Of a stretch of 27,252 nucleotides of DNA, positions 2,077 to 22,284 are shown piece after piece. The position numbers and the translations under genes were made by a program. Position 1 is the first letter of the stretch; every line of letters begins with the position of its first letter. The notes beneath the pieces are model-generated. The model saw only the letters and a list, made by a program, of their open reading frames with translations. It did not search any database and was not told where the DNA came from. Source of the stretch: Fragilaria crotonensis (lineage: Eukaryota; Bacillariophyta; Fragilariophyceae; Fragilariales; Fragilariaceae); assembly GCA_022925895.1 (NCBI GenBank), contig JAKSYS010000758.1, positions 1 to 27,252 of the forward strand. The letters run 5' to 3'.

Positions 2077-3552
2077 TCATCCTGATATTGAGTAGATCGG
2101 TGAGGGAGATCGCTTTGATCCTGTCTGTGTTATTTGCCCAGAAGGTGTCTGCAAATCCCACCCGTCTGGCAATGCGGAGGGGTCGATCTCAGCCTTGAAG
2201 ACGCCTCCTTGTCCAGAAACTTGCAGTGGGCGTTTAAGATAGGCGACTCGTTTAATTTCCGTCACCATCCGACCGCTATCAGCGCCAAAAGCTGCAACCT
2301 TTCGTTCGAAATCAGGGATGCTTCGTTCGGCTTCAGTTGTTTCGTAGGTCTTGCCAATTTCGCAAATGGCTACGGCCATTCCTTTACCAAACCCCTTAGG
2401 CAATGATTTGAGTTGTCGAACCTCTAAGTCAGACAACCCATCTCTTTTCATAATATCGATGTGTTTGTCGCCGTCAGGATACGTGCGCTGACCCACGTGC
2501 AATAGCATTTGAGTTCCCTCTGGGTAGGGAGCAAACATAGTTCCATTCCTCGTTTCGAGCGTTTTGTAGCCGTTGGCCAACAATGCTGCGAAGGGTAAAT
2601 TCATGGAAAAGACCCTTACAACGACTCGTTCTTTATTTGTGGAGGACATGAGAGCCAGATCCTTCGCAAAACTTTTACCATTCTTCGGGTCTCGGGCCAG
2701 TGCGAACGAAACCTTATCTCCCACTTCCACAATGGCGTCGTTTGGAAGATTGATGAAATGAAAAAACACGTCCGTTGTGGTACGATCACCGTATTTAATG
2801 AATCCATAGCGTTTTTCCAAGCTTGCGGTTTTTACAACACCTTCCAGTCGCTGTGTCGAGACCGTTTTGTGATTGGTAACAGACCCGTCCCATTCGACGA
2901 TAGTGCTTGGTAATTTATCCCATTCCTCAAATTTCCTTAAGCCAGTCTCAAAAATTGCGTAGTTCTGCAGACCTGCGGGACAATGCACAGTTAGAACTCC
3001 CAACTCGCTAACTGGTTCGCAGTTCCCGAATTTTCCATCGCGAGCATCATCGAAGAATAGCATCTGGTCGTAATCTACTCCGCTTGCCTTTTTCAGGTTC
3101 GCAAAGTGTGTACGCTTGTTTCCGGGGAAGATTTCAACGTAATCCATGAGTTCACGCAACTTGAATTGATCTAGCAAATCTTGCGCCCACTCGACCGACT
3201 TGGTTCTCGAGGCCACAGCAAACTTGGTACCCGACGGATAATCACCCCTCCTGATTGCGTCCACTACAGCTTTTGAGCCTTCAAAAAGTGTCACATCTTT
3301 TCCAGCTATTGGTGTCGTTCCAGCCCGTTCGTGTGTGCGTAGCTGATAGAGTTCTGGGGTCCAAATCGTATTGTCCAAATCGAAGACAATCAGTGCAGGG
3401 AATGCACTCAAGAGCTGCTGCGATAACAACCGAGATTCACGCGGAAAAAAGGTATTTTGGAAGCCACAAACATTGGCAGATAGAAACAAACAGCAATGCA
3501 GGATGAAATTGAGGATCGAACGGGAGACCCTAATGGAATTCCGGCCTGCCAT
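2077..3552 (-). CDS. MDP-1-type HAD phosphatase + cold-shock domain + ASCH-like domain, plastid-type leader
   Basis: 491 residues from the chosen Met at 3552; the open frame runs further upstream to 3822, but only this Met opens a good signal peptide. Residues 1-30 are a hydrophobic leader ending ANVCG, followed by Phe31 (FQNTFFP), which fits the diatom plastid presequence rule. Residues about 53-205 match magnesium-dependent phosphatase-1: FDLDNT with D58/D60 as nucleophile and general acid, VASRT at 113-117, and FFDD at 166-169. Residues about 235-302 are a cold-shock OB fold with RNP1-like KRYGFIKY and RNP2-like DVFFHF. Residues about 312-440 resemble an ASCH domain (SMNLPFAALLANGYKTLETR). 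MDP-1 relatives act on phosphotyrosine or glycated-protein/sugar phosphates; CSD and ASCH suggest nucleic-acid binding. The joint role is unknown. Single exon, no frameshift. Confidence 0.86.
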   Translation of the reverse strand: MAGRNSIRVSRSILNFILHCCLFLSANVCGFQNTFFPRESRLLSQQLLSAFPALIVFDLDNTIWTPELYQLRTHERAGTTPIAGKDVTLFEGSKAVVDAIRRGDYPSGTKFAVASRTKSVEWAQDLLDQFKLRELMDYVEIFPGNKRTHFANLKKASGVDYDQMLFFDDARDGKFGNCEPVSELGVLTVHCPAGLQNYAIFETGLRKFEEWDKLPSTIVEWDGSVTNHKTVSTQRLEGVVKTASLEKRYGFIKYGDRTTTDVFFHFINLPNDAIVEVGDKVSFALARDPKNGKSFAKDLALMSSTNKERVVVRVFSMNLPFAALLANGYKTLETRNGTMFAPYPEGTQMLLHVGQRTYPDGDKHIDIMKRDGLSDLEVRQLKSLPKGFGKGMAVAICEIGKTYETTEAERSIPDFERKVAAFGADSGRMVTEIKRVAYLKRPLQVSGQGGVFKAEIDPSALPDGWDLQTPSGQITQTGSKRSPSPIYSISG

Positions 3553-3977
3553 CGTGATGAGTGATGTGGCGGTATGTGCGACAGCATATGAGCATTGCCA
3601 ATTGCCTGCACCGGCAGTGTAGACCGTCGAACGGTGACGGCCGCTGATGATGACCATGACAGAGGCCTTGTACAGTAGCCTTCGTACGTTACTGTACTGG
3701 AGTTCCAGTAGCTTATTGCGTCTGTGAGAGATGCACGCTGCACGCTGCAAACTTAATCCAAAAATGCAGACAACCGTTATAGATTTTATAGAGCACTGTA
3801 TTCCGTACTCCGAGTACGACACAACACAACTGTAGTCTATGCACTATGCACCATCTCGATTCCGGAGAAGGTAGGGACGACGGGTAGAGTCCTCGTAACT
3901 GAAGCTTCCCAACTCGCAACGCAAGATGCAACTACCTCCAAGTACAATTGCAATTCTGAAAGCTATAAAATGCTCCA
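3553..3977. promoter_or_regulatory. Upstream region of the MDP-1 fusion gene / 3' flank of GOGAT
   Basis: About 425 bases that must hold the promoter and 5' UTR of the MDP-1 fusion gene and the 3' end of the glutamate synthase gene. The frame stays open through part of it, but the translation is low quality (Cys-rich, no domain), so I do not extend the gene. A tandem CACGCTG pair lies near 3730-3745. No promoter element can be named. Confidence 0.4.
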
Positions 3978-6900
3978 TTAATCAGCACACCGAGCAGTTT
4001 GATCTGGCGACAGTTGGCCACCAACTGCAAGGAAACACAGAGCTCCGTCAGGGGCCGCTGCTGATACTCGGGTGGCAACGTCCTGCGTTTCACCGGAGAC
4101 AGCAGTGGACAGCCTCTCTGAAGGTGGGAATATTTGCCAGAACTTTTTCTTCTCGCTGTCCCAGTTGTTCAGAATCTCCTCCGCTCGTTCACTTCCAGTC
4201 TTCTCGAAGTGCCTTTCGATCATCAACTTTAGTTGAGCTTCCCCGGCAGCCGTACTGACCCGTTGAACTGCGACAATTTCTCGATTAACTTTTTCCAAGA
4301 ACTCGTCTCCTTCAGTATTGTCGTAGAAGTAGGCAACGCCACCTGTCATTCCGGCGCCAACGTTTCTGCCTACAGAGCCGAGCATCACAACCACACCGCC
4401 AGTCATGTACTCGCAGCAGTGGTCACCGGCCCCCTCCGCAACCGCGAAGGCGCCGCTGTTTCGAACGCAAAATCGTTCACCAGTGCGCCCGTTGGCGTGG
4501 AAATCGCCACCTGTCGCTCCGTAGAGACAAGCATTTCCAACAATGCTTGAGTCAGCAGCGACGAAACCAGCGCTGTTGTCAGGAACAATTACGATCTCTC
4601 CGCCGTGCATGCCCTTTCCAACGTAGTCATTGGCTTCTCCAGAAAGTCGCACGTTCAACCCTGGGAGCATGAAGGCGCCGAATGACTGACCCGCGCTACC
4701 GTCAAACTGAACATTGATGGTTCCTTTGAATCCGGAATTGCCATGAGCGCGGGCAATATCACCCGCCAACATGGCACAGGTACTGCGATCAGTGTTCCTG
4801 ATATTGTAGCGAGCAAGTGTTTCACCCTCGTTGTTTGCGATGATCTGTTTGATATCGTTGTTGCTGCAGATTTCGCGATCCAAGTCGGAACTGAAGCCAT
4901 TTCGGTGAATGACTTCCTCCTTCATGACTTCTACACCCCCTTCAATCTTGGCGCGAAGGAAAGAGCGGTCTCCACTCACATCTGGAATGCCCGAGAAGAA
5001 CTGATTCAAATCAAGGCTCTTCGTCTTCTCGATACGCTGTTTCTGAAGCTTGCTTTGTTTCAAGAGGTCAGCTCTTCCAATCAGGTCTTCAAAGCGAGCG
5101 TATCCGAGGTGGGCCATGAGCTCTCGCATTTCCTCAGCAACAAATTCAAAGAAATTGACGACATGCTCAGGGGTACCTGGAAATTTCTTTCGAAGTTCTT
5201 CTTTTGACTTGTAACACCAACTGGGCAAGTGTTCAAGTGACAAACACGAGCCATAACACATCCCTCGGCGATCATCGCAATGGTTCCGAAACCATACTCT
5301 TCGGCACCCAGCATGGCCGCAATGGCGACATCACGTCCGGTGCGAATGCCTCCGTCAACACGAATAACAACACGGTCGCGAAGACCATTGTTAACAAGCG
5401 CTGCATGTGCTTCAGCAAGGCCGAACTCCCACGGACTGCCAGCGTGCTTGATTGACGAAAGTGGAGACGCTCCGGTGCCGCCATCTCCTCCGGAGATTTG
5501 AATGACATCGGCGTCAGCCTTTGCCACTCCACACGCTACAGTTCCAATTCCAATAGAGGAAACAAGTTTGACCGAAACACCAGCCTTTTCGTTAACCGCG
5601 TGAAGATCGTGAATCAACTGAGCAAGATCCTCAATACTGTAGATATCATGGTGAGGTGGAGGCGAGATGAGGGTGACTCCTGGCTTACTGGCGCGGAGGC
5701 CGGCGATGTATTCGGAGACCTTTGGTCCTGGGAGCTGACCACCCTCACCAGGCTTCGCACCTTGGGCCATCTTGATCTCCAATTGCTTAGCAGTAACCAA
5801 AAACTCAGGTGTTACACCGAATCTGCCACTTGCAACCTGGTGGATGTAGGAATTCGCTGAATCTCCATTTTTCAAACCAGCAAGATGAGGAAACGTCGCA
5901 CTTCTGCCCTTCTCGTCAACATCCATGATGGGCTTTCCGCGAATGACATCTTCCCCACCCTCGCCAGAGTTAGATTTTCCACCTATGCGGTTGACAGCTA
6001 CGGCAAGAGTTTCATGAGCCTCGCGACTCAAAGCACCAAGAGACATGGCACCAGTGCAGAAACGAGCCATGATAGCAGACGCAGGCTCGACTTCAGAGAT
6101 TGGGATACTGGGGCGATCCGAGTCAAAATCAAGTAAGTCGCGGATATTTGCGAGAGGTGCAACCTCAAGACTCTTTCTGAAGATCTCGTAGTTCGCAACA
6201 CTCTTAGGCTTAACTCCGTCGTTCTCGAGCTCATCCCGGTTGGTGGCAGCGCTGACCTTTTTATCCATCCCGATCGCGTCATGCAAGAGCTTAGCTAAAT
6301 CAGCTGAGTTTGCATGGTATTCCCCAAGAGCAGGGACCGGCTTGTAGAAGCCAAAGTTCATCAGCTTAGTTTTTGCAGCAGCAACCTCTGGGCGCATCAT
6401 AACAGTTTCGTGGGCAATGTCGCTCAATGTCAACCCGCCGATACGGCTAGTGGTTCCCTTGAAACTGCGCTCGATGGTCTCTTCGCCGAGTCCGATGGCT
6501 TCAAAGATTTGGGCTCCGGAATAAGATGTAAGCAGAGAAATTCCCATCTTGGAAAGGATCTTAAGCAAACCATCTTCAACAGCCTTGCGATAGTTCTGTT
6601 GAGCTTCATCAAGGGATGTCTTGGTCAATTTTCCGGACTCCATCATCTTTTGAACCTTCTCCTGTCCATGCCATTGTTTCACAGTCTCAAGAGCTAGGTA
6701 TGGGTGCACAGCGTTTGCTCCGTATCCTACCAGGCAAGCGAAATGATGAGTTGACCAAGCCCCACCAGTTTCTGCAATAATACCAGCGTCCATGCGCAAC
6801 CCTTCATCAATGAGTCTGTGATGGACGGCCCCAACTGCCAAGAGAGGTGGGATGTAGCTGGTCTCGTCAAGTACAGCCTGCGTCTCAGCCAAGTCGCTAA

Positions 6901-9245
6901 GAATGACAACTTCGATGCCACTTCTCACAGCGGCGACAGCTTCGTCGCACAGTTTGTCGAGGGCGGATTTGATTCCTTCGGGGCCGAGCTTGAGGTCGAA
7001 GCGAGTGGTGAGAGTAGCTTGCTTGAACCCGCCATTTTCTTCCTTTGCATACTCCTTGATGAGGGCCATCTCCGAATCGTTCAGGACAGGAGATTCAAGG
7101 TGGATCAAACGCGCACCTTTCTCGGAAACCTTGTAGATGCTTTCCTTTCTACCCAGCGTCGTTGCAAGGGACATCACAACACCCTCGCGAAGTGGATCAA
7201 TAGGAGGGTTGGTGACTTGAGCGAAGCGTTGCTTGAAATAATTGTAAAGTGGTTGAGGACGTGTTGAAAGGGCAGCGATAGGAGCGTCATCTCCCATTGA
7301 ATACGTCGTCTCCTTCCCGCTTCCAGCCATATCAGCTATCTGCATACCGATGTCCTCCAGACCCCAACCAAAGGTGCTTTGCGCAAAGGTGGCAGTGAGA
7401 TCATCGTACAAACGCTCATCGGAGCCAAATTTCATCTTCTTGACATCCTTTCTCTGGCGTTGAATCCAATCTCCATAAGGATGACCTATGGTAGTGACGA
7501 CTGTTAGAAATTGAATAGCTCTCAAATCACAGTTTCCCAGTTCACTTACGGGAGGCAATCTCGCTCTTGATTTTAATATTGTCCTTGAATTCTCCAGTAA
7601 CAAGGTCGACGTTGATCATTTGTCCTGGGCCTAGACGTCCCTTTTCGATAATGGTTGACTCGTCGAGACCAGGAATGACTCCAGTTTCGCTCATCATGTA
7701 AACAGTTCCATCGATAGTTCTTGAAAATCGCGCAGGACGAAGGCCGTTTCGATCCAAAGAAGCACCAATTGACTTTCCATCAGAAAACACGAGAAGGGCA
7801 GGACCATCCCAAGCCTCCAAGAGGCCGCCGTGGAATTTGTAAAAATCGACAATTTCGGGATTGTCCTTTAAGTCGGGAGAGTTCTCATACGCAGTAGGGA
7901 CCAGCGCCATGAGGGCGCAAGGAGCACGATGACGAGAGTGGCACATGAGTTCAAAGACAGCATCTAAGTTGGCGGAGTCTGAACGGCCCAAGTCGATGAG
8001 GGGCTCCAAGACAGATGGGATATCTTGGGTGTTGCACATCATCACAATATTGTCAGTGGCGTCATAGTCAACCAAATCGCGGACATCCCCTTTGGAGTCA
8101 CCGTTGGCTCCATTGATCGTGGAGCTTGAGGAAGTGTCTTCATCGAGATCAAACTCTGACGAGATTGGGATACCCTTGGCAGCCTCTCGAGCCTTAATCC
8201 AGTTTACGTTGCCCAGCAGGGTATTGATTTCACCGTTATGACCCACAACACGCATAGGCTGGGCAAGGGGCCATCGCGGGTTTGTGTTGGTCGAGAAGCG
8301 TCTGTGATAAATGACAAACTTGGTTGTGTAATCTGGATTTTGCAGATCTTTGTAGAACCGAGGGAGAACTTCGGATTGGACCATGCCCTTGTATACAATT
8401 GTGCGACAGCTGAAGGATGCCACATACACTTCGCCATCGCCATCCTCCCAAACAAGTCCACGCAATTTGCGTTCGACGTCGAAACGACGTCTGACCAAAT
8501 ATAGGGTTCTCTCAAAGCCGTCGCGGGAATCGTCGTCGTAATCCAGACGCGGTGGGGCCTTGACGAAGAATTGCCACATACTTGGCTGTGCTTTGCGGGC
8601 CATCTCACCAAGAACAGAAGGGTCGACTGGAACCTCGCGCCATCCCATGAACTCCAGTTCGTTGGCACGGCAGACATCTTCAATGACTTGCTTGACATCG
8701 TTTCGTCGCTGCTCGTTCTGTGGCAAGAAGATCATTCCAACACCTGGCTTGTGGGTGCTGCCTTCGGAGAGGAATTCGGGGAATAATTTCCAAGGAATTT
8801 GCGTCATGATACCAGCACCGTCTCCTGAGACACCATCACCTCCGCAAGCCCCGCGGTGCTCCATGCAACCGAGGGCCGAAAGACCGTCTTGTAGGACCTT
8901 GTGACTGCCAAATTCATCTGCAACCAAGAGACAAAGAAGGAGAGCAAAGTATGTCAGATGGACAGAAAGGCAGAGAATCACCATTCGACTCGTTTGACCT
9001 TCTTCCTCGATAAGCACGTCCAACTCACCACCTGAGTGTGTGTTTGCGATGAAACCGACACCACATGCGTCACGCTCCTTGACGAGTGCCCGCGGACCAT
9101 CGAACATGTTGGATGGTTTGTCGGTAGTAAAGGCCATTTGGAGCTTCGAGTCAAAAATCTTGGCAGGCACTCTCGGCGAAGAAGGCAAGAAAGCATTAGC
9201 AGGCCATGCCGCCATCATTAAGGTGGCTGTCAACGAATATCTCAT
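3978..9245 (-). CDS. Ferredoxin-dependent glutamate synthase (GOGAT), plastid
   Basis: Transfers the glutamine amide to 2-oxoglutarate to make glutamate, completing the plastid GS/GOGAT cycle. Exons 8999-9245, 7550-8917 and 3978-7485 give about 1707 residues. The leader MRYSLTATLMMAAWPANA is followed by Phe19-Leu-Pro, a classic diatom plastid signature. Cys61 (ACGVGF) is the expected N-terminal nucleophile of the class II glutamine amidotransferase after processing. The central FMN/synthase domain follows. The 3Fe-4S motif C-x5-C-x4-C (CVMARVCHLNTC) lies near 5230-5265. The C-terminus is the GXGXG beta-helix (HGGEIVIV, GATGGDFHANG, MTGGVVVMLG). There is no NAD(P)H-binding beta subunit, which argues for the ferredoxin type. 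One frame change sits at 5202-5205, where an A run looks one base short; TSQK continues as EELRKKFPG in the next frame. Both introns are listed separately. Confidence 0.95.
7486..7549 (-). other. GOGAT intron 2 (64 nt)
   Basis: On the minus strand the donor reads CTCCC/GTAAGTG and the acceptor ACCATAG/GTCATCC. Removal joins the two open frames in phase 1, giving IASRHPYGDW, which is continuous with the family pattern. Confidence 0.9.
8918..8998 (-). other. GOGAT intron 1 (81 nt, in frame)
   Basis: Donor GAAG/GTCAAAC, branch-like CTGAC, acceptor TTGCAG/ATGAATTT on the minus strand. The length is a multiple of three with no stop, so an unspliced reading would insert 27 mostly hydrophobic residues between VLIEEE and DEFGSHK. 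Family alignment favours removal. The donor is weaker than the GTAAGT donors used elsewhere in the window. Confidence 0.75.
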
Positions 9246-9602
9246 GGTTGGATCGACTTGATGAATGTGTCTGTATAGCCTATAAGAATATCAAATCAAT
9301 GGGTTCGACAATCAAGTCAATCTCTGGAAATGAGCAAGAACAGCAGACTAGCTTCAGAATGAAGCAATTGCAAAGAAGGGAAACGTGTGGGACTCGGCGA
9401 GTTCGGACAGTATCACTCCAACTTCCGCCGTAGGAACAAGAGCAACTTCTTTAATGCACCCAACTCAGAAGGATCGGATCGAATGAACTTTCGGGTCAGC
9501 CCGGTGTTCCGAACCCCAAAATCTTTTTCAACAAAGGGAATGAACGGCTGATGGACTGCGGACGGTGGACCACTAAAAATCTCTCATCACGACGAAGTTG
9601 CG

Positions 9603-10008
9603 GTACTTGTACATATGATACAAGTACACACTGGTAGAGAAGTACTGGTACATGGTACTAATATACTGTATGCATATGTTAGTACATAACTCATTCTGTA
9701 TTCTGTACCAACCTCACTACCCACAGATGCAAGTACCTGGTACCAGGTGCTTGTACTCCATATGAAATATTCTGTACAAGTCCACTATCATACAAGTATG
9801 TATGCCATAGTTGGTCTACTCTGACTCCTGAGACTCCTGACTTCGACTCCGACTCCGGACGCATCATATTCTAGTTTGTATGCATAGTTTGTACATGTAC
9901 CCTCAGACAATGACAGTTCTACGGTAAGCGTACATCTACCGGTACTTGTATCATATATCATATGCATATCTCTTAGGTAGTACTAGTACCAAGTACAGTA
10001 CTTGTACC
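9603..10008. repeat. GTAC-rich palindrome cluster
   Basis: Dense run of short palindromes built on GTAC. At 9603-9627, GTACTTGTA faces TACAAGTAC across 7 bases. At 9731-9752, AAGTACCTGGT faces its near-complement with one mismatch. Near 9990 there is CAAGTAC-A-GTACTTG. The same sequence style returns in every intergenic region of this window and is rare in the coding exons. I cannot assign a family or function. Confidence 0.7.
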
Positions 10009-10110
10009 AACAGTCCTCGTTCCTCGTCGCCCACTCGTGACTCGTGATTCTTTGTCCACGAGAAGAAGCGAACCTGTAAATGTCTGCACTGTGCACCAGT
10101 ACACCTTTGT

Positions 10111-10135
10111 GCCCAGAGCCCAGAGCCCAGAGCCC
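10111..10135. repeat. Short CCCAGAG tandem repeat
   Basis: A 7-base unit CCCAGAG repeated three times and ending in CCC, about 100 bases upstream of the small membrane-protein start. It is perfect over its length. It could be a polymorphic microsatellite; no regulatory role is evident. Confidence 0.85.
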
Positions 10136-10233
10136 GATTCAAGCCACGATGAAAAACAGGCACCAAGTATCAGCGGACTTGATTATTTGCTGAACTCGAG
10201 CAAAGGTGCCGATTGTCGGTCTTGACCTCCACC

Positions 10234-10879
10234 ATGACGCAGTCCAACAACGTATTCCTAACCAGCGAGAACCTTGCCTTCTCTCTGCCCCTCCTCACTG
10301 TATGCGGAGCCTATGTAAGACTAAGACACAGATCAGAGTCGACATGTTGTGGTCAGTCATTGTTGCCGTCATTTATACCCACACTCTCTCCTCACCGCTG
10401 ATTTGTTTCTTCGATCATCTCCTTTTCATGCCTTTCTCTCTGCAGGCGTACTTCAATTACATTCCCCTATACATAGGAGGGCCAATCTTGGTCGGTGTGG
10501 GGCTTGTGTTCTTGGTAAAGTCTCAAATGAAGGCCCGTAAGTGAGCGGGACGAAGCGACCCGTGACAAATGGGACAATACATCCATCACATCTGACACCT
10601 GTTCTCTGTATTCCAGTCAAGAACAAGAAGTTGCAAAATTTGGATGAAGATTTTATCAAGGATTTGGCTGGTGACACTGAGGAGGAAGCCAAGGCCAAGC
10701 AAGAGGCAGAAGCGGCCAAGGCGCGCAAGGCCAAAGCCAAGCTGGAACAGCGTTTGGCCATAGAGCAGAAGAAACTCAGGCAAATGAATGGGGAGAAAAA
10801 GAAGAAGAAGAAAAAAGGTGCGGATAATGACGATGAAGACGAGGCTTTGGAAATGTTTATCAAGAAAAAGACCAAGTAA
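10234..10879 (+). CDS. Small membrane protein with coiled-coil and lysine-rich tail
   Basis: Three exons (10234-10314, 10446-10536, 10617-10879) give 144 residues. The start is chosen because it opens exon 1 with MTQSNNVF and splicing then joins all frames cleanly. Residues about 14-52 are hydrophobic and could form two close membrane helices (a hairpin around AYFNYIP) or one long one. Residues about 62-110 are a charged helical segment rich in Ala, Lys and Glu, typical of a coiled coil. The tail has seven consecutive Lys, an acidic patch, then EMFIKKKTK. I do not recognise the family. The order of membrane anchor then basic cytosolic coiled coil suggests an ER or other membrane tether, but that is inference. 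Confidence 0.75.
10315..10445 (+). other. Intron 1 of small membrane protein (131 nt)
   Basis: Donor CCTAT/GTAAGA and acceptor CTCTGCAG/GCGTAC, phase 0, with a pyrimidine-rich stretch before the acceptor. Splicing runs one hydrophobic segment straight into the next (GAY/AYFNY). Confidence 0.85.
10537..10616 (+). other. Intron 2 of small membrane protein (80 nt)
   Basis: Donor GGCCC/GTAAGTG and acceptor GTATTCCAG/TCAAGAAC, phase 1. Without splicing the frame stops two codons after the donor; with splicing it continues as KALKNKKLQ into the coiled coil. Confidence 0.9.
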
Positions 10880-11027
10880 TAGGGAAACAGCAGAGGCTAG
10901 GCACTGCCATCTTGACTAGCGCGCAAAGGATTGCATAGTATTGCATAGTTCGATGTTTAGAAGTTCGTTCGATCGGAATTACCACTACAGTATACCATAC
11001 ATACTCCATCCAAGAAAGTGTGATAAG
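10880..11027. other. Convergent intergenic region
   Basis: Short spacer between the small membrane-protein gene and the cyclophilin gene, holding both 3' ends. It has a small direct repeat (TTGCATAG twice near 10932-10950) and nothing else I can name. Confidence 0.6.
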
Positions 11028-11719
11028 CTACAGTTCTCCACATTCTGTAATCCTCAATGGTATTCTCGGTTTTTGATTTGACACTGGCACTGCCTCACAC
11101 TTGCGGACAGTGAGCATAGACTCGGCATCCAAAACGCGCCCAAAGACTACATGCACCCCATCCAACCAGTCCGCTTTGGCCAATGTAATAAAGAACTGCA
11201 AGCGTTTGTATCCTTTCCCGAGTTCGCCATGCTCAACATTCCAGGTTGATCGTGACGGTGAAGAAAGTTTTCATCAGGAAACGATGTTCCGTAGATGCTG
11301 TTTTGGCCAGTGCCATCGCCCTTGACGAAGTCACCACCCTGAATCATAAAGTCCTTAATGACTCGATGAAATGTGGCCCCTTTGTATCCCGTCGGTTGTT
11401 CATTCACCAGAAATTCACCTGTACAGAGCTGACGAAAGTTCTCGCACGTTTTGGGGCACTAGGCGGACAAGAAGGAAAAAGACGAAGGAAGCAAAGCATC
11501 GCGTGTGAGGTCAATATCATTCAAACAGTAGACGCCGATTCCTGTCTGTTTCCTGCTTTCAACTTACATCTTGAGCAAAGAGTTCCAACTTGATTCGTCC
11601 CAAAGGCGCCGCAGTATCACCTTCCCCAGGCTGATATCAAGGAAAACAACCGCATTGCCTTTATTGATAGCTTCCATCACTTCAGGATCTGGACCGACCA
11701 CCACGTCAACGTCGTTCAT
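11028..11719 (-). CDS. PPIH: Peptidyl-prolyl cis-trans isomerase, cyclophilin H-like
   Basis: Two exons (11568-11719 and 11028-11458), about 194 residues once two single-base losses are allowed for. Catalytic core [15 protein letters not shown] carries the cyclophilin Arg, Phe, Met and Gln; QFFITL, DWLDG and HVVFG complete the active site. [10 protein letters not shown] and the SIYG.SFPDENF insert are closer to human PPIH (USA-CyP, U4/U6.U5 snRNP) than to CypA, so a spliceosome-associated role is likely but inferred. There is no signal peptide; the start [14 protein letters not shown] is a short acidic extension. Frame changes lie at 11624-11627 (G run one short, [12 protein letters not shown]) and near 11198 (one C short before QFFIT). 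All active-site residues lie in intact stretches, so the gene is probably functional. Confidence 0.92.
11459..11567 (-). other. PPIH-like gene intron (109 nt)
   Basis: On the minus strand the donor is CAAGAT/GTAAGTTG and the acceptor CCGCCTAG/TGCCCC, phase 0. It joins KLELFAQD to [10 protein letters not shown], matching the cyclophilin fold. Confidence 0.88.
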
Positions 11720-12131
11720 TGTTATCAAGCACCTTGCTAATGAAGCATTACATGTATGCCATCATGGTGAGAAAGCTTTTCCTCGGTGTACTGGTCGAGT
11801 ACTGACTCTACCGGTACAGTAGCTAGCAGTACCGGTATTTCCATTAGGTGTATTAGGTAGTACTGTACCAGGTACGACATACTTGTACCTGGTACGACGT
11901 ACCCAATCTCCGTCCGATAGTCACCAATATGAGTCAACGCCAGTCACAGTCGAAGACGTTCCAGACCCAGTCCAGTCGTATATCGAGAGCTGATTGGAGC
12001 TGACGCAAATTGGTGTAATCGGATCTACATAGTCAGAGAGCTCGGGTCCAGCCGTATATTGTAGCAGGGGGTAGGGGTAGGTACAAGTAGTAGGTACGAC
12101 AGTAAAAGAGGCAAAACCTTCAGGTGATACA
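11720..12131. promoter_or_regulatory. Upstream region of the PPIH-like gene with GTAC palindromes
   Basis: Contains the promoter side of the cyclophilin gene. Around 11800-11905 there are repeated palindromic blocks (ACCGGTACAGTAGC, TACCAGGTACGAC twice). No core promoter element can be named and no gene is seen. Confidence 0.45.
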
Positions 12132-12594
12132 TTGTTGATTGTTGACCATGACATCGCATCATCCACACCAGCTCATAATGTGCAAATCCAATTGAGGTCA
12201 AAAGTGGCATACATGATGCTCATTTCATTGCTAAAGCAATGGCTGATGATTGGGATCCATCCAATGTTGGCCATTGAGCATGCACCCACAGATGCCAAGG
12301 TGTCACAAAAATGGTGGCTGCTTAGCTAATTCTTCCACATCTTCGTGTAGAGAGCAAAAGAGGTGGCATTCAGGGTGGCAGTAGAGAATTGCACCACAGT
12401 TCTGGCCTGGGCCAAGACCACTTTTTTAGCTCTCCCAAATCAACAATGGGAGCCGTTTGCTGGAACATCTAGCTTGCACTACTGCACTCCATGATGACCA
12501 ATTTGTGTTATCTGATGAGGTAAGAGTCTGCTTTCATGAGTGTCAAGATGTTGCTATTGACCATGAGGGTCAACTCTTTTTGACTAGCTACTAG
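12132..12594 (+). pseudogene. Decayed coding remnant, possibly from a mobile element
   Basis: Segments in different plus-strand frames read like protein: DIASSTPAHNVQ near 12150, EVKSGIHDAHFIAKAMADD near 12195-12255, RAKEVAFRVAVENC near 12352-12395, and LSDEVRVCFHECQDVAIDHE near 12510-12570, ending at a TAG at 12592. They are separated by frame changes and stops. I do not recognise the family. Its place in repeat-rich intergenic DNA suggests a degraded transposon gene. Assembly errors may add to the breaks, so how decayed it really is remains unclear. Confidence 0.35.
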
Positions 12595-13488
12595 AGGCCG
12601 CAGTTATATTCCTAGCACAAATTAAGTGACTGTAGGAAAAATATTGCAATATTATACACACAGCGTGTTTAAATTCAAATTTTTAAGACAGGTACGAGTA
12701 CTACAGAACTACAGTGCTAGCTAGAGTACTCGGAGTAGTACTGAGCGCACCATCATATGAAACAGTGAATCCAACAACTTGAGAACGTGTGCATCGCATG
12801 CAGTGATTTTCGAGTTACACTTTGATCATCAACACTGTCTACACTCTACACTCCGACTCCAGGGGGGTTCCGGAACTTTGACTAATGTCTCAGTACATTC
12901 TGCACAATTTTATTTCATGGTGAACAAGAATTCCCGGACCTCCAAGTTTGGGAATGTTCAGTCTTGTACTATACATATTCATACGCATGAAATGGATAAT
13001 CCAAAACAACGACGAGGATGTACATGTACCAAGTACAAGTACCAATACTTGTCGGGAATATACGGTAAATGACGATTAAGTCATTGAATGTCTCTTTGTA
13101 AAGGACGGTTTTGCCAATCTCTAAATAGTAGTACAGTCTACTCGAAGAAGTAACGGAGCTGTGTCTCTTTGATTGTGTCTTTTTGATAAATGATAATTTT
13201 AGCACACCGAGGTGCGTTTCCTGATGTCCGAGGTTTCAGCACGTATGCCTTGGAGTAGGTCTCTACTACTCTACTACACTGAGAAAGCGTAATCGGAACT
13301 TTTTGTTGTCCTTTTCAGATTCGCCCGAAAATTGGCGGTCACACCCACCTTGTTTACGCAGCAAATTGAACGCATAAAAGCACTTGCTGTGTCGGAAGGT
13401 ATTTGTACCTCGTCCTTAATCCTCTCCCAGAAGAGGATCCAGGACCGAGGACTTCCTGTCGGGACGCCGAAAAACACACAAGAACAAG
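12595..13488. promoter_or_regulatory. Intergenic region upstream of the adenylyl cyclase
   Basis: No gene seen. It is AT-rich near 12630-12690, then has GTAC-type blocks near 12690-12740 and 13020-13045. The last 200 bases before the cyclase start are less repetitive and are the likely promoter/5' UTR. Confidence 0.45.
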
Positions 13489-16400
13489 ATGGACAACGAT
13501 GAATCGTTGAAATCCTCCAGCTCTCGAGTGGTGGATTCAAACCCTGAACGAGTTCGATCCCGCACGGTTCAGTCTATTCAATATCTTGCCACCCATGTTC
13601 CAATGTCGGTTCTAACGCGCCTAAGCGAGGAGACCAAGGCATGGGCAATTACCATGACACATTGCCACGGCGACGGCGAAGGATCGATTCACCACGCTCT
13701 AAACGACTGTACGACTGATGAATCAGATCTTCAGGATAATCAGGATGATCAGGACCATGACAGCGTCACAACCGAGGATACGCTTTCTGAGCTTTCTCGT
13801 GAATTCGACGACTCAGAGACTGATCTGACACAGAATAGTGGCATGGAACGAATGGCGCTTCACGAATCTCTTGCAACCGAGCCTGAAGTGGACGAGTTAC
13901 CTGCCTCTGCTAATTTGGAGAACCACGAGGTGATTTTTGACACCAGTGCGATTCCTCGGCGCAAAATGGTTCGCCGAGGGTCGATGGCTTCGATTGTGTC
14001 GTTCAGATTGTCAGATTTTCAAGGGATGCCTCACGCATCCAGAACTGATGCATCTCTCTTACTTGTTGATATCTCAGGATTTACTCGTCTCTCTACCGTG
14101 TTGGGCCCGGAAGCGCTCAGTAGGGCCATCAACGAATATTTTGAATTGATAGTGAATGAAGTCACGAATCATTCAGGGACATTTGCAATTTGCTGGGGAT
14201 TCGTTGCTTGCAACGTGGAGAGTGTCCACAAGCAAACCATACGCTGCGTGCCGATCACTAGAGTTGAGGGCTCTGATGAGCTGCGATGAATGTGTCACTG
14301 CAGCTGCGTTATGCGGTGCGGCTATTGTATCCAAATACAGTGAATATCCAATATGTGTCAGTGACACAGCCAAGCATAACGAAAGGGGAAAGGGACACAT
14401 GTTGAATGTACACTGTGGAATAAGCTTCGGCACACTTGTATCAGTGCACGTGGGGATGACACTTTTCGAAGGCAAAATATATTTCTGGGCTCATCAGTTG
14501 ATGCGATTGCGCTCGCAGCGACATTCGCCGAGATTGGGGAGGTTGCTGCTTGTCCCGCTTCGATTGAAATATTGTCGCGAACGTGCGTGCTATCTGATTC
14601 AATTTCTTCTTCTAAACAGAACACTCCTGCGGTCATTGCGAACCAGTCTATGACAATGTTTACGTTGACAGCACCGTTTTCCCCTGCCGTGAGTGATCCA
14701 TTGGCATTGAGAGTGGAAAGGTTTTTGAGTGGATGGGACACCGCGGCGTTGATTCATTACCGAACGCTGTTATCGTTGTATGTGCACCCGGTCGTGGCTG
14801 CAAACGATGCCGGTGATGGCAATGCGTCATATCCAGATGTTGCTGGGAACACCACGCTTGTTCAAACACGCCAGGTTGAAGAAGCAGAGCTCAGGAATGT
14901 GTTTGTTATGTTTATTGCACCACTTATATCAGTATCGATACCTGGAGATGACGAAAACGATTCACCGCTGTTTGATCTTCTCAATTCAATTATGAATCTT
15001 GCAACGAGAGAGTTAGCGCGCTTCGGTGGCCATTTGAGACAATTCGTTGTGGACGACAAAGGGTTAGTGCTGATTGCAACTTTTGGATTAAGGGGTTCGA
15101 ATTTCCAAAACATGGTGACGGAGCGAGTGCTTCCAACAGCAACAACAATTCAGAACTGCCTCCTTTCAGAATTTGATGTCAAAAGTCGAATCGGTGCCAC
15201 GATGGGCAACGCGTATTGTGGAGTTGTTGGTGGAATCATGCGACACGAATATGCGATATTGGGTCCTTCAGTCAATTTGGCGGCTCGTTTGATGGCATTG
15301 CCATCGAACCCTGGGTTACTGGTTGATGATGCAATCCGCCAATTAGCAGATAGATCGTACGGATTCAACGCCCTTTGTCCTGTCCAAGCCAAGGGATATT
15401 CGATGCCGGTCGCAATCTTTGAGCCTATCTCATCTGTGCAGAGACGTTGGGGTCGAAAGACTATTAACTTTGTTGGTCGAACCCGCGAGCTGGGAATGTT
15501 GACAAAACTGGGGTATCAGATTGCTACGTCGTCTGTAAAAACGCCTGCTAGGCTTGTCCTGGTCTCAGGTGTCGCTGGCCTAGGCAAAAGTACTTTCGTT
15601 CTACAAATGATCGACGAAATCCAGAGGACCCTTCGCACGAAAAGGAAGCGTGTTTTCGTTGCGAAGTGCGTGATTAGGGACAGCGACGCGAGGACTCCGT
15701 TCGGTGCTATTAGCTCAATTTTGATGGATGCTATAAAGGAAAGTGAAGGATATCAGATGGATGAATCGTCTGTCATGTCGAATGCAGGATCAATCAATTC
15801 GTGGGTCTCCAGTTGTGGAGTTTCTATATCGATGATGAGCACGTCAAAAGTTGGAGATCGAGTCTCTGCCCTGTGCAACGAGATTGGTGCCTCACCCGAG
15901 TTCGCTCAGCTTGTGGGTCAGCATCTGCTGAAGTTGAACCTGCGCATGATTGGCGGGAGTGACAAGCTGGAACATGAAAAGAAAGCTTCACTCGCAACGC
16001 AAATGGCTGACGTTATTCTGCGCTGCACAAGGAATGCTGACCTCTCTATTATTGCTCTCGACGACGTTCAATTCGCAGATGATATGTCGTTCGAAGTTGT
16101 CCAAAAGTTGTTCGAGAGTGGCTTAAATCTTATGATCGTTTGTGCGTCCCGCCCTCTCTCGGAGTACAAATTGGCTATGGATAATGGGTTCTGGGACCGA
16201 TTGAACAATGATTATGTCTTCACCGGAAGGTATCTGCCTGTCGTCTTGAACCCGCTTAACGAACCAGAAATGAGAAAGTTGATAGCGAGAACACTGGGGC
16301 TTCCAAACGAAGATGTCAGCGAACAGCTGTTGAAGTCCACCTTGGCCCAGACAGGAGGTATACCCCAAATGGCGTCGGTCTTGCTTGAGCATCTAAAACG

Positions 16401-18438
16401 AAACTATTCATCTGCTGTGGCCGGAGGTGTAGTTAATGATATGAAAGAATTTGGTGCGATTGCAGAGGTACGTGTTCCCTTGTGATCGACGTCAATCATT
16501 TTTGACCTCATATGCTCACGGTCAACTAACAAATTGACTGTTAGACAACGTCTGCAACGCCTCTCAATCAAATGATTCTGCAAGAGATTGATCGCTTTCG
16601 CGGTATAGCCCGAAAGGTGCTGAATTTAGCAGCCGTGATGGGATCTTCATTCGAGTTTTCAGAACTCATGGCAGTCATGTTTACACTTTTAGGGACAACG
16701 GCAGGCAAAGCGTCGGCAAATGCCGATGCATTGAGAATTGGTGCTCTGCGGGCACTATCCTCGGCAGCGAAAAAGGGAATTCTTTGCGTTGAGTGGAACG
16801 GGGGCGAGACTATTGACCACCCCCCTGCCTCATACTCAGGTTTGGTCGAATCAAACCTGCAGCAGCAATCCGATCCCATACCTGACGAACTAACATGTTG
16901 CTTCTCGCACGATATGTGGCGGTCATCGATCTTAGGCCTAATGCTCGACAGACGGAAGTCCGAGTTACACAGAGCAATAGCTCTCACTTTAGAAGGCACT
17001 GATCTCAACAACACCAAGGATTTTACATCCCGATTGCTCCTATTTGGCCATTGGAAGGCAAGTGGAGACTTCCTCGAGACTTCAAGAATTGCTCTTGAAA
17101 CCGGCAAGATGTTTGAGGACCTGGGATTGCACAAGCAGAATGTTGGGCTGTACCAAGAAGCCCTTGGTATGTGGGCCAGAGCAGTCGATTCAAAGGATGC
17201 AGCGGGCGGATTCTCTCCTGAAGTTCTCAACGTTATCTCAAGTGACCAGCTTGTGGCATGTGTTAAGATTTGTGTCGCTTTGGGCAAAGCATACCTTAAT
17301 CTGCACCTGGTGAACGATGCCGCCAAGGTTTACCAGGATGCTTTGGGAGTAAGTCAACCGTGTTTGGAATGCCTTATTTAAGACTCACTCCATCTGACAT
17401 CATGTTCTCGTGGAACAGTTGCTGGGAGCATCAAAGAGCGGCCGAAATATCACAGATCGTTCAATTGTCTTTCCGATATTCAGCGGGTTGTTCCTGTTGA
17501 TCAAGTTGGGGGCGATCAAACAGGACGAGACATGTTCCTATGAGCAAGGCTTAGTTGCCAAATTTGTTGACGAGACTCGATTGCATGGAGATCCCATTCA
17601 TTATGCTCGGGCCTTGGCTATGCAATCAGATATGTTCGCTCGGCAATGCGATTTCGAGAGCGCTCTTTCAACCCATGATCACCTCAAAGAGATCTATCAC
17701 CCTGATTGCCATTCGAGTGGAATCTGTCGTGAATATGGAAGTGACAGAGCTGCACAATGCCTCAGCCTGAGCGCAATTTGGTTGGTTGAAGTTGGCAGGA
17801 CAGAGGAGGCTCTTCGAACGTGTGATTCTGTTGTTTCAGAAATAATGCCGCTCATGGAACCATCGAATGTTCACAATTCATGCGTCATCTTATACCCTTT
17901 ACTCTGGGTACTGAAAGACAATGGAATGGCCTTGAAAGCTAAGCAAGTCTTCATGAAGTACGTCATTGACGCGTTTGACCTATATTTTGGGGAAGGGGCG
18001 ACCACGTTCAGTCTTAAATTATTCAATCCAATACTAATGCTTCTGGATCTCGACGAGAACCAAGATGCTGATGTTGCAAACCTGCAAGAATACCTTGAGT
18101 GGGCATTGTGTGAACAGAATTTACGTCTGGGAGAAACATTGAACAACGCCTTTTTGCCATTTGGGCGTCTGGCTGACAGCATCGGTGCCGAGATCTGCCT
18201 TTTGCTTGCCAAACGCCCCGGCATAGCTACAAATGACCAGGAAATGCTCATGAAGAATGGACTTCGGTTGAGTCGGGATGGAGTTGAATATTGCAGACTT
18301 GCGAAGGCCAACGCCAGTCTGCGTCGCGTCCTTCCCATCTTGACTGATCTGGAAAACATGGCACAGGATCGGAGAGTACTCGATGAAGGCGGGCTCGATC
18401 TGGGTTCTCCACACCGATGCGGCTCATTTGAGTGCTAA
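13489..18438 (+). CDS. Soluble adenylyl cyclase (ADCY10-type): tandem class III cyclase, P-loop NTPase, helical tail
   Basis: Makes cAMP from ATP by homology. Exons 13489-16467, 16545-17348 and 17419-18438 give about 1601 residues, close to human sAC (1610). Residues 1-185 are acidic and disordered. The C1 domain (about 188-371) has DISGFT (metal Asp about 194) and QFAGDSLLATW (second metal Asp about 238). The C2 domain (about 473-645) has DDKG and RHEYAILGPSVNLAARLM, with the transition-state Asn and Arg kept. The P-loop NTPase has Walker A GVAGLGKST (15568-15594) and Walker B LSIIALDDVQFAD (near 16045-16080). Exons 2-3 are helical, as in the sAC tail. Against human sAC, the bicarbonate residues Lys95 and Arg176 align with Gln and Ala. 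Frame changes lie at 14182-14184 (T run, two bases short) and 14452-14455 (G run, one short). There are no membrane helices. GTP specificity cannot be excluded. Confidence 0.92.
16468..16544 (+). other. Adenylyl cyclase intron 1 (77 nt)
   Basis: Donor GCAGAG/GTACGTG and acceptor TGACTGTTAG/ACAACG, phase 0, with a branch-like CTAAC upstream. An unspliced reading stops within seven codons. Confidence 0.88.
17349..17418 (+). other. Adenylyl cyclase intron 2 (70 nt)
   Basis: Donor TTGGGA/GTAAGTC and acceptor GTGGAACAG/TTGCTG, phase 0. It joins YQDALG to LLGASKSG; the unspliced frame stops after 11 codons. Confidence 0.88.
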
Positions 18439-20176: not shown

Positions 20177-20184
20177 TCCTACTG
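20177..20184. repeat. Target site duplication, left copy (TCCTACTG)
   Basis: Matches 20766-20773 exactly and directly abuts the left terminal inverted repeat. Confidence 0.85.
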
Positions 20185-20765
20185 CAGGGATTGGAAAATA
20201 GTTATTACTGGTACCGGATACCAAATACCGATGGTATATACCCCCACCAAAACTGAGATTTTCCCACGGCCTGGTATCCGATAACTGAATTCATATCGGT
20301 ACTGGTTCTACCTACCAGGGTGCTTTCGAGTATACCAACCAGTAACCCGTACCCCTTGGTTATTATTTACCAAAGAAGGGCGTTGGTATCTCGAAAGGCG
20401 GTATTAAGACATTCCGACGTATATATGTACATTCAGCAATGCATTTTTAAACACATATGATGGTACATTCTTAATTTTAGCAGCAAATATCTAAGTAAAA
20501 GCCAGTTCCGTTAGACGTTACAGTACTGTAATGCACCCTACAGTATGTTGCAGTAGTACCGATACCTACCAGACTGGAATGAAAGATACCGGTCATTTAC
20601 CCACGCTCGAAATAAATGGGAAATATATTTTATACCAACCACTTGGACTTCGTATTATTGCGTAACTATCCGTTCGTTCAAATTCACGACGGGGTATACC
20701 AAATATTTACCAGACGCTCTCAATACTGAAATCCGAGTCCTGCAGTATTATTTTTCCAATCCCTG
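20185..20765. mobile_element. Non-autonomous hAT-type element (581 bp) with TIRs and 8-bp TSD
   Basis: The left end reads CAGGGATTGGAAAA (20185-20198), and the reverse complement of the right end (20752-20765) begins with the same 14 bases. With one gap the similarity continues into an AT-rich stretch. The flanks carry an identical 8-base direct repeat, TCCTACTG, at 20177-20184 and 20766-20773. An 8-bp duplication with CAGGG-type ends is the hAT superfamily signature. No transposase frame lies inside, so it is a MITE-like passenger. The interior has repeated ATACC/GGTAT motifs in both orientations, as expected of hAT subterminal repeats. The perfect duplication suggests a fairly recent insertion. 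Confidence 0.85.
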
Positions 20766-20773
20766 TCCTACTG
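20766..20773. repeat. Target site duplication, right copy (TCCTACTG)
   Basis: Matches 20177-20184 exactly and directly abuts the right terminal inverted repeat. Confidence 0.85.
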
Positions 20774-20793
20774 TACTCCTTTTAAATTTGCTT

Positions 20794-20840
20794 TGTGCGT
20801 GCGTGTGTGTGTGCGTGCGTGTGTGCGTGTGTGTATGTGT
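20794..20840. repeat. TG/TGCG microsatellite
   Basis: About 47 bases of alternating GT with interspersed GC (GTGCGTGCGTGTGTG style). It is a likely length-variable microsatellite and can adopt Z-DNA because of purine-pyrimidine alternation. It lies 20 bases outside the hAT element. Confidence 0.9.
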
Positions 20841-21113
20841 TACGGAGTATGACCACTCTGGGGTACTGTTGCACTGTTACGTGGATTGCATGTACTACAG
20901 GTATACAGTACATAAATGGACGGTAATTTATGTTGAAACGACAGTGTGTTACGTTACTGAAGTACAATACTGTACGAATTCAAAGTTACTGGATGGAATA
21001 CTCATTGAATTTTTGCTGTAAAGCACAGGTTTCTGCTTCACAAATGCTACTGTTAAACACCAGTATGTATCATACTCCGATCAGTTGTGAGGAACCCACT
21101 ACCTGTACTTGTA

Positions 21114-21735
21114 CAGTGCAGGAAGCCTATAATCGACAAAAAAACTGGATTCTATTTCTCCTTGATTTGGGATTTTATTCAAAATGTGAGCCGATAAGTG
21201 TGATGTTTGCGATTGCATTATGAAAGTTATCGGCTTACAAATTTTCAGAATTTATTTTTCAAAGATTTATTGATGGCTGAAGATGTGACTTTTTTTCACG
21301 ACACTAACTTTTTATTGCATTTCTGGGCGATTTAGGATAAACTAAAATTTGGTTTGAGAATTTGAGAAACAAAATTTCTGGCATGGCACTTAGCGAAAGG
21401 TACTCTTCCTCAATTCCTCAGTAGCTTCTACATAGAATCAGTACCAGCAAAGTCACGAGGGAAACGTATGGAGCTCTACGGTGGAATGCCTCTGTAGCAT
21501 CTACATAATTTCAGTAGCAGGAAACTCAACGAGGAAGCATAGTGGTGTTCTACAGTGCACCGCGCATATTCTAGATCACTACCAGGTACAGTAGTATAAT
21601 GGTACTGGAATTGTGTAGACGGGCTGACAGGTTATGAGCTCAACTTTGAGTACAGTACTACAATTGCTGTACAGTACTACAGTAGCAAGTAATCTGGAAT
21701 TTCACCAAATTGTTGTTTATAGGCTTCCTGCACTG
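21114..21735. mobile_element. Inverted-repeat element (622 bp) bounded by TA, mariner-like MITE candidate
   Basis: CAGTGCAGGAAGCCTATAA at 21114-21132 is repeated perfectly in inverted orientation at 21717-21735. TA lies immediately outside each end (21112-21113 and 21736-21737). TA duplication with CAGT-type ends fits Tc1/mariner, but GTAC is so common here that TA alone is weak evidence. No transposase is inside. The interior contains a 13-bp inverted repeat (21185-21197 with 21227-21239, one mismatch) and a degenerate tandem duplication at 21416-21557. Confidence 0.68.
21416..21557. repeat. Degenerate tandem duplication, about 73-bp period
   Basis: Two adjacent units start CCTC-GTAGC-TCTACATA (21416) and CCTCTGTAGCATCTACATAA (21489). 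Both continue through a TCAGTA-CAG block and an ACGAGG block and end CTAC-GTG. It lies inside the inverted-repeat element and is clearly older than a recent copy. Confidence 0.65.
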
Positions 21736-21737
21736 TA

Positions 21738-22284
21738 CTCTAGTTACAGATAACAACACATGCGCTGACCATCATGTAGACTACATACACTTGTACTAGT
21801 ACCTTGTACCCTCAACCCTCAACAGCATGGTTGGACTGCAGCACTCTCTACTGTCATAAGAGAATTCGAAGTTTTTTGAATGAACCCGAATTGACTGTAT
21901 GTTCGCCATGCGTCAATGTGTCAATCGTCAATCACGTATCACGTCCCAAGTCCCAACATCGATTTCACAGACTCCACACAGACACACAGTCGATTTCACA
22001 GACTCGCCCACACAGTCTCCGTGGGGGCATTTCGTTTGGCGCCAAATTTGCAAGAAATTCAAAAAACAAGAAAAAAGAAGTCGAAAAGTCAACACCACAC
22101 CACCCAACCACCAAACGCAACTTAGTACGCAATCATAAGATTGCCATTGATGAATACAGCAAGAACTACGGAGTAGACGAGTCATTGTCAACCGCGCCTC
22201 ACATCTTAGTTTCGCAGCGTCTGACCGCTACTGAAGAGTATCGGAGACAATCCTGGGTCCGCACTCAGAACAAAAGAATACTGA
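21738..22284. promoter_or_regulatory. Upstream region of the organellar DNA polymerase gene
   Basis: Presumed promoter/5' UTR. It holds a CTTGTACTAGTACCTTGTACC palindromic block near 21790-21810 and the 31-bp tandem. A long open frame (21804-22478) crosses it, but its translation is low complexity and it overlaps the polymerase start, so I reject it as a gene. Confidence 0.45.
21960..22016. repeat. Two-copy tandem repeat, 31-bp period
   Basis: CGATTTCACAGACTC occurs at 21960-21974 and 21991-22005, each followed by a CACACAGT-containing stretch. It lies upstream of the DNA polymerase gene, in the presumed promoter region. Confidence 0.75.

Follow-up and report, generated by a model that had tools for sequence, protein, structure and literature searches.

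A diatom soluble adenylyl cyclase without the bicarbonate-contacting lysine and arginine of the mammalian enzyme

In diatoms, cAMP is linked to CO2 sensing; among the literature matches listed we found no paper on this link. Which inputs could then set a diatom cyclase, if the residues that contact bicarbonate in the human enzyme are missing from it? A gene of Fragilaria crotonensis raises this question. The window, meaning the whole stretch of DNA analysed (27,252 bases, contig C734 of a 62-Mb assembly), carries on its forward strand, at about 13489-18438, an ADCY10-like soluble adenylyl cyclase (sAC) gene. From cyanobacteria to mammals, soluble adenylyl cyclases are described as conserved sensors of bicarbonate and acid-base state (PMC5269408).

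The gene model comprises the following features:
13489..16467, forward strand: exon 1, with an N-terminal extension, C1 (frame broken in the window contig), C2 and an AAA_16 ATPase; from ORFs, the C758 copy open in C1, and Pfam PF00211 and PF13191, the 3' end being predicted from GT..AG
15466..16137, forward strand: AAA_16 ATPase (PF13191), with its Walker A at 15568-15594; from Pfam, 48.1 bits against a cut-off of 32.6
16468..16544, forward strand: predicted intron 1, GT..AG, 77 bases; from splice signals, with continuity to the C47 paralogue judged by eye
16545..17348, forward strand: exon 2, C-terminal region; from the open frame and likeness to C47 by eye, no Pfam match
17349..17418, forward strand: predicted intron 2, GT..AG, 70 bases; from splice signals
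17419..18438, forward strand: exon 3 with the stop; frame open to TAA, no Pfam match

The order C1, C2, ATPase is that of human ADCY10. Two cyclase domains were recognized per chain, since C1 of the second contig, C758, and C2 of the window both matched human sAC in phmmer searches. The closest relatives with solved structures were human sAC entries (4clf, 4oya and others), with E-values of 5.1e-10 for C1 (C758 copy) and 1.1e-12 for C2. Against PF00211 (cut-off 21.9 bits), C1 and C2 of C758 scored 29.2 and 22.0 bits, and C2 of the window, with 21.6 bits, was just below. In the paralogue C47, C1 and C2 lie within a single ORF of 1521 aa. The original prediction, made from the letters of the window, had assigned the protein a full ADCY10 architecture. 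Pfam bore this out for the cyclase domains and the AAA-type ATPase downstream of C2, while the C-terminal part is assigned by its likeness to the paralogue; exons 2 and 3 gave no match in the Pfam search, including no TPR-like region.

No continuous C1 frame exists in the window contig. The reading runs in frame 1 to ~14182, in frame 2 to ~14430-14451, and then again in frame 1, due to the following breaks:
14175..14182 (14175 and 14182), forward strand: frame break, two single bases present in C758 missing here; from the contig alignment
14451, forward strand: frame break, in a G run one base shorter than its C758 counterpart; from the contig alignment

The C758 copy has one extra base at each of 14175, 14182 and 14451, and its C1 is open, within an ORF of 509 aa. 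C758 has single-base losses of its own in the sAC coding sequence, at 15009, 16738, 16775, 16800 and 16820, so that an unbroken full-length gene is found on neither contig. In total, the window and C758 differ in exons 1-3 by eight single-base indels and one 3-base indel. The original prediction had read C1 as continuous, bridging the breaks without mentioning them; the residues it read were right. A separate second gene on C758 was considered and rejected: C758 is collinear with window positions 5564-27252, in three segments of 97.9-98.3% identity and one of 92.5%, and we read it as the other haplotype. Apart from this, ~2.7 kb are found only in C758, and ~1.6 kb (20178-21749) plus 120 bases (near 11910-12028) only in the window. 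Introns or a programmed frameshift were rejected as the source of the breaks, because each break is a one-base difference within or next to a short run, and the other haplotype does not have it.

The motifs recognized in the window were DISGFT (14068-14085), LQFAGD (14183-14200), VDAIALA (14497-14517) and RHEYAILGPSVNLAARL (15241-15291). Aligned with human sAC, they gave the following assignments:
14068..14070, forward strand: Asp at human Asp47 (metal); MAFFT
14186..14188, forward strand: Gln at human Lys95 (bicarbonate contact), most simply derived in the window paralogue; phmmer, MAFFT and tree
14198..14200, forward strand: Asp at human Asp99 (metal); MAFFT
14411..14413, forward strand: His at human Lys144 (pyrophosphate contact), in all six diatom paralogues; MAFFT
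14509..14511, forward strand: Ala at human Arg176 (bicarbonate switch), Arg in 0/6 diatom paralogues; phmmer and MAFFT
15040..15042, forward strand: Gln at human Lys334 (base recognition), in all six diatom paralogues; MAFFT
15253..15255, forward strand: Ala at human Thr405 (base pocket), Ala in 5/6 diatom paralogues and Asp in the sixth; MAFFT
15274..15288, forward strand: NLAAR, equivalents of Asn412 and Arg416 kept; MAFFT

The phmmer alignment to human sAC paired ilqfagd with ILKFAGD, gssvdaialaa with GQAVDDVRLAQ, and rheyailgpsvnlaar with RHEYTVIGQKVNLAAR. The second C1 block, around Arg176, reached only 9.9 bits alone, and in MAFFT the Arg176 column was unchanged with or without 27 bacterial proteins. 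The three exchanges of the original prediction (Lys95 to Gln, Arg176 to Ala, Thr405 to Ala) were thus recovered by both methods; in MAFFT the catalytic aspartates and the C2 Asn and Arg were kept as well. These sequence-based alignments placed neither Lys nor Arg at the bicarbonate pocket. C758 has the same residues at the C1 and C2 sites, so the mammalian-type pair of Lys95 and Arg176 is absent on both haplotypes. The span given for these residues, 14050-14600, was too short, as the 405 site lies at 15253. Two further differences had been overlooked, Lys144 to His and Lys334 to Gln, both found in all six diatom genes. Human ADCY10 therefore differs from the window gene at Lys95, Lys144, Arg176, Lys334 and Thr405. 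The absence of the base-recognition pair Lys334/Thr405, here Gln/Ala, lowers the certainty on the substrate, not on descent. In C2, the stretch LRQFVVDDKG (15034-15063) has an Asp at human Phe338, a position mirroring the metal-binding Asp99 of C1; an Asp is also found here in 21/27 bacterial relatives.

The genome holds at least six sAC-type genes: the window gene, C47, C79, C362, C327a (282986-284553) and C327b (407286-407780). At positions 95 and 176, respectively, we found Lys and Cys in C47, Lys and Ala in C79, Lys and Ser in C362, Lys and Ala in C327a, and Thr and Gly in C327b. Arg176 was thus present in none of the six and Lys95 in four, with the window gene and C327b lacking both. His144 and Gln334 were found in all five other paralogues, and position 405 was Ala in four of them and Asp in C327b. 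The Ala predicted at the Thr405 site is correct, but as a family-wide change it is not particular to the window gene. C47, C79, C362 and C327a resemble the window gene in His144, Gln334, Ala405 and the lack of Arg176, and differ from it in having retained Lys95. The window gene cannot stand for “the” diatom cyclase, being one of at least six, of which four of the other five have Lys95. C327b (L043 2112-3275, contig C327 near 407286) is very divergent, with Thr95, Gly176, Asp405 and a Val for Asn412. From these residues, it is possibly non-catalytic or using another substrate.

In a tree of 34 rows, five diatom genes formed one clade, with support values of 99/98. The window gene grouped with C47, C79 and C327a at 93/91, below the 95/80 mark, and C362 was outside. 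All six diatom genes came together only at 59/98; C327b and human sAC had very long branches, and their placement is unsure. Since Lys95 is present in all four neighbours (C47, C79, C362 and C327a), its loss is most simply read as derived in the window lineage.

The bacterial scan covered 548 stretches and gave one confirmed relative, while none of the 49 stretches in the viral contig scan was confirmed as a relative. The wider bacterial set was drawn from 201 genomes of the phylum of L044 (Chloroflexota), 22 of them with a match at E <= 1e-15. The 31 loci (L044-L074) gave 27 distinct proteins, four being dropped as the same protein. L044 had 33% identity over its best segment. As in the window gene, both cyclase domains lie in one protein (27/27 by profile). 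The residue counts in these tandem proteins are not independent, due to near-copies (L050, L051, L053, L054 and L059; L052 and L060), a single phylum and selection by likeness to the diatom query: Asp47, Asp99 and Arg416 were found in 27/27 and Asn412 in 26/27; Lys95 in 21/27 (otherwise Gly 3, Ser 2, Asn 1); Lys144 in 8/27 (otherwise Arg 18, His 1); Arg176 in 1/27 (otherwise Gly 9, Ala 5, His 5, Ser 5, Val 1, Asn 1); Lys334 in 15/27 (otherwise Arg 7, Gln 4, Ser 1); and Thr405 in 24/27 (otherwise Ser 2, Ala 1). Thus, most of these proteins share with the window gene the lack of Arg176 and, unlike it, have Lys95 and Thr405.

With Arg176 missing in 6/6 diatom genes and 26/27 bacterial relatives, its absence is probably ancestral, that is, the diatom sAC lineage probably never had it. 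The original prediction had both bicarbonate residues replaced. Both are indeed absent; “replaced”, however, fits Lys95 only.

A Gln at position 95 could also reflect relaxed constraint in a recent, strain-specific pseudogene, with real indels that break C1 on one haplotype and C2 and exon 2 on the other. The breaks listed above for the window (14175/14182, 14451) and for C758 (15009 to 16820) agree with this, and so does the branch length of the window gene, which at 0.53 exceeds those of the other four genes in the diatom clade (C47 0.18, C79 0.26, C362 0.41, C327a 0.45). Against it, the codon differences between the haplotypes were 13 synonymous to 5 replacement (pN 0.0014, pS 0.0123, binomial p 1.6e-5 against site proportions), in a count that omits 14171-14459 and, like the other indel and substitution counts between haplotypes, uses exon ends up to two bases off the final ones. 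The indel losses were also one-sided by stretch, a pattern given by consensus error. In the glutamate synthase stretch (5564-9245), none of the 22 indels was a multiple of three and 21 were bases missing from C758, a sign of consensus error; in the polymerase stretch, 15/17 were bases missing from the window. As counter-evidence to a working gene, replacement differences outnumbered synonymous ones by 6 to 3 in the N-terminal part of the glutamate synthase (1 to 7 in the middle part), indicating that false replacements also arise from consensus error. Substitutions per kb between the haplotypes were 27.7 upstream (12100-13400) and 4.7, 0 and 4.9 in sAC exons 1-3, but this low divergence alone does not prove constraint, because the intergenic stretch 9300-11900 likewise had only 5.4. 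Given that the indels differ between haplotypes, that similar ones occur in neighbouring genes, and that the codon differences are 13 to 5, we favour a working gene carrying consensus errors, and consider a pseudogene unlikely.

How would such an enzyme be regulated? In human sAC, a salt bridge between Arg176 and Asp99 is described as inhibitory until bicarbonate engages Arg176 (PMC12250328). All six diatom members lack Arg176, and hence this switch could not work in the family as described. In the window paralogue the other positive contact, Lys95, is changed to Gln as well. The single active site would lie at the interface of C1 and C2, with the metal aspartates from C1 and Asn412 and Arg416 from C2, followed by the AAA ATPase and a long C-terminal region. 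From these residues, we consider it moderately likely that the window gene encodes an active adenylyl cyclase lacking the bicarbonate switch. It would make cAMP without activation by bicarbonate, its inputs being pH, substrate, calcium or partner proteins. With Lys144, Lys334 and Thr405 changed too, its activity could be low or its substrate altered. Counted against this reading was the His at position 176 in 5/27 bacterial relatives, as His can be charged.

The regulation by pH is extrapolated from animals. According to PMC12867704, a neutral residue at Lys95 and/or Arg176 is found, with exceptions, across nonmammalian animals of 13 phyla; many fish kept Arg176, and some species lack both residues, Gln being among those found instead. 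Sea urchin and salmon sAC are reported there as activated by alkaline pH and insensitive to bicarbonate. They resemble the window sAC in their tandem cyclase domains, the catalytic Asp and Arg, and one or both bicarbonate contacts being neutral. At least one neutral residue at these two positions is the genotype by which that study recognizes pH-activated nonmammalian sACs, and the window sAC has it. Unlike the diatom enzyme, with its Gln and His, both animal enzymes retained Lys334 and Lys144 (PMC12867704 Table 1). The Lys95 equivalent of the sea urchin was predicted to have a lowered pKa, and the pH dependence with Mn persisted after its replacement. Restoring Arg at position 176 of the sea urchin enzyme gave no bicarbonate response (PMC12867704), so more than Lys95 and Arg176 would be involved, a point against our reading.

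Bicarbonate or CO2 might still be sensed by an active cyclase through another site or mode. The Anabaena enzyme is bicarbonate-activated, with contacts other than the Lys95 equivalent not conserved in bacteria (PMC4506562), so a response is possible without Arg176 in some relatives, and a role in carbon sensing has been described for cyanobacterial soluble cyclase (PMC10096703). However, it is the Lys95 equivalent that is reported to be crucial in the Anabaena enzyme (PMC4506562), and this residue is Gln here; we regard sensing through another site as rather improbable.

A different doubt concerns the base. With Gln and Ala at the Lys334 and Thr405 sites, base choice could be altered or relaxed, which would be compatible with an active cyclase lacking the bicarbonate switch. 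Gln334 is found in 6/6 and Ala405 in 5/6 diatom genes, and among the bacterial relatives in 4/27 and 1/27, with the two together in L066. Mycobacterial Rv0386 is a working adenylyl cyclase with Gln at the Lys334 position, which counts against this alternative. Two substrate-binding positions are reported to steer the ATP/GTP preference, Ala being among the second-position residues of guanylyl cyclases (PMC4215837). At the first of these positions, the Lys334 site, guanylyl cyclases are marked by a Glu (PMC4215837), which the diatom gene lacks. Altered base choice appears very unlikely to us. A class III guanylyl cyclase was rejected outright, as there is no Glu at position 334 and all six diatom genes have Gln.

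Judging by their residues, the at least six paralogues might also have split inputs. The four with Lys95 and no Arg176 (C47, C79, C362 and C327a) have the sea urchin genotype and could use Lys95 to sense pH or carbon, whereas the window paralogue, additionally without Lys95, would be blind to both. All six would read the base by Gln and Ala, or Gln and Asp, instead of Lys and Thr, with a relaxed or altered nucleotide choice. The salmon enzyme, which is pH-activated without Lys95 (PMC12867704), speaks against such a split, and we put it forward as a doubtful proposal.

A cyclase that is active but has no bicarbonate switch would not be a new kind of sensor. Neutral residues at Lys95 and Arg176 are already described in animals (PMC12867704), and the window sAC is an uncommon variant of this known pattern. 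The main text of PMC12867704 mentions no diatom, algae, protist, unicellular, choanoflagellate or bacteria. Adenylate cyclase was reported from four diatoms by sequence similarity, with the type not given as sAC (PMC3727952). Among the listed papers pairing “soluble adenylyl cyclase” with “diatom”, no title was on a diatom sAC. Judged from the listings, none of the matches listed was a published account of a diatom sAC family, of Gln334 throughout such a family, paired with Ala or Asp at 405, or of a paralogue split at Lys95. Read alongside the animal study of 2026, the diatom and bacterial counts suggest an origin of the Arg176 switch on the animal side, with Lys95 being the older residue. 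A set of paralogues sharing a background without Arg176 but differing at Lys95 offers a natural test of the role of Lys95 in a carbon-fixing cell.

Several other genes were recognized around the sAC locus and elsewhere in the assembly. In the window, a glutamate synthase on the reverse strand (3978-9245), with GATase_2, central, Glu_synthase and GXGXG domains, is split in three overlapping ORFs in two alternating frames. A single ORF at 86-1906 (forward strand) fuses a ChaN/Tiki-type haem-binding domain (PF04187) with a methyltransferase domain (PF13847), and another at 2077-3822 (reverse strand) fuses an acid phosphatase domain (PF12689) with a cold-shock domain (PF00313). On C758, past the 3' end of its sAC copy, the ~2.7-kb stretch found only there holds an ORF (L010 383-982) with a match to GCR1_C (PF12550, 25.3 bits against a cut-off of 23), which may belong to a mobile element. 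The silicon transporter domain (PF03842) had 19 matches in the assembly, 18 above the cut-off, with a best E-value of 4e-193, marking its source as a diatom. Contig C97 (29749-33762, L024 in part) encodes three silicon transporter units in one open frame of 1456 aa, and C771 two in 1008 aa, that is, fused tandem transporters.
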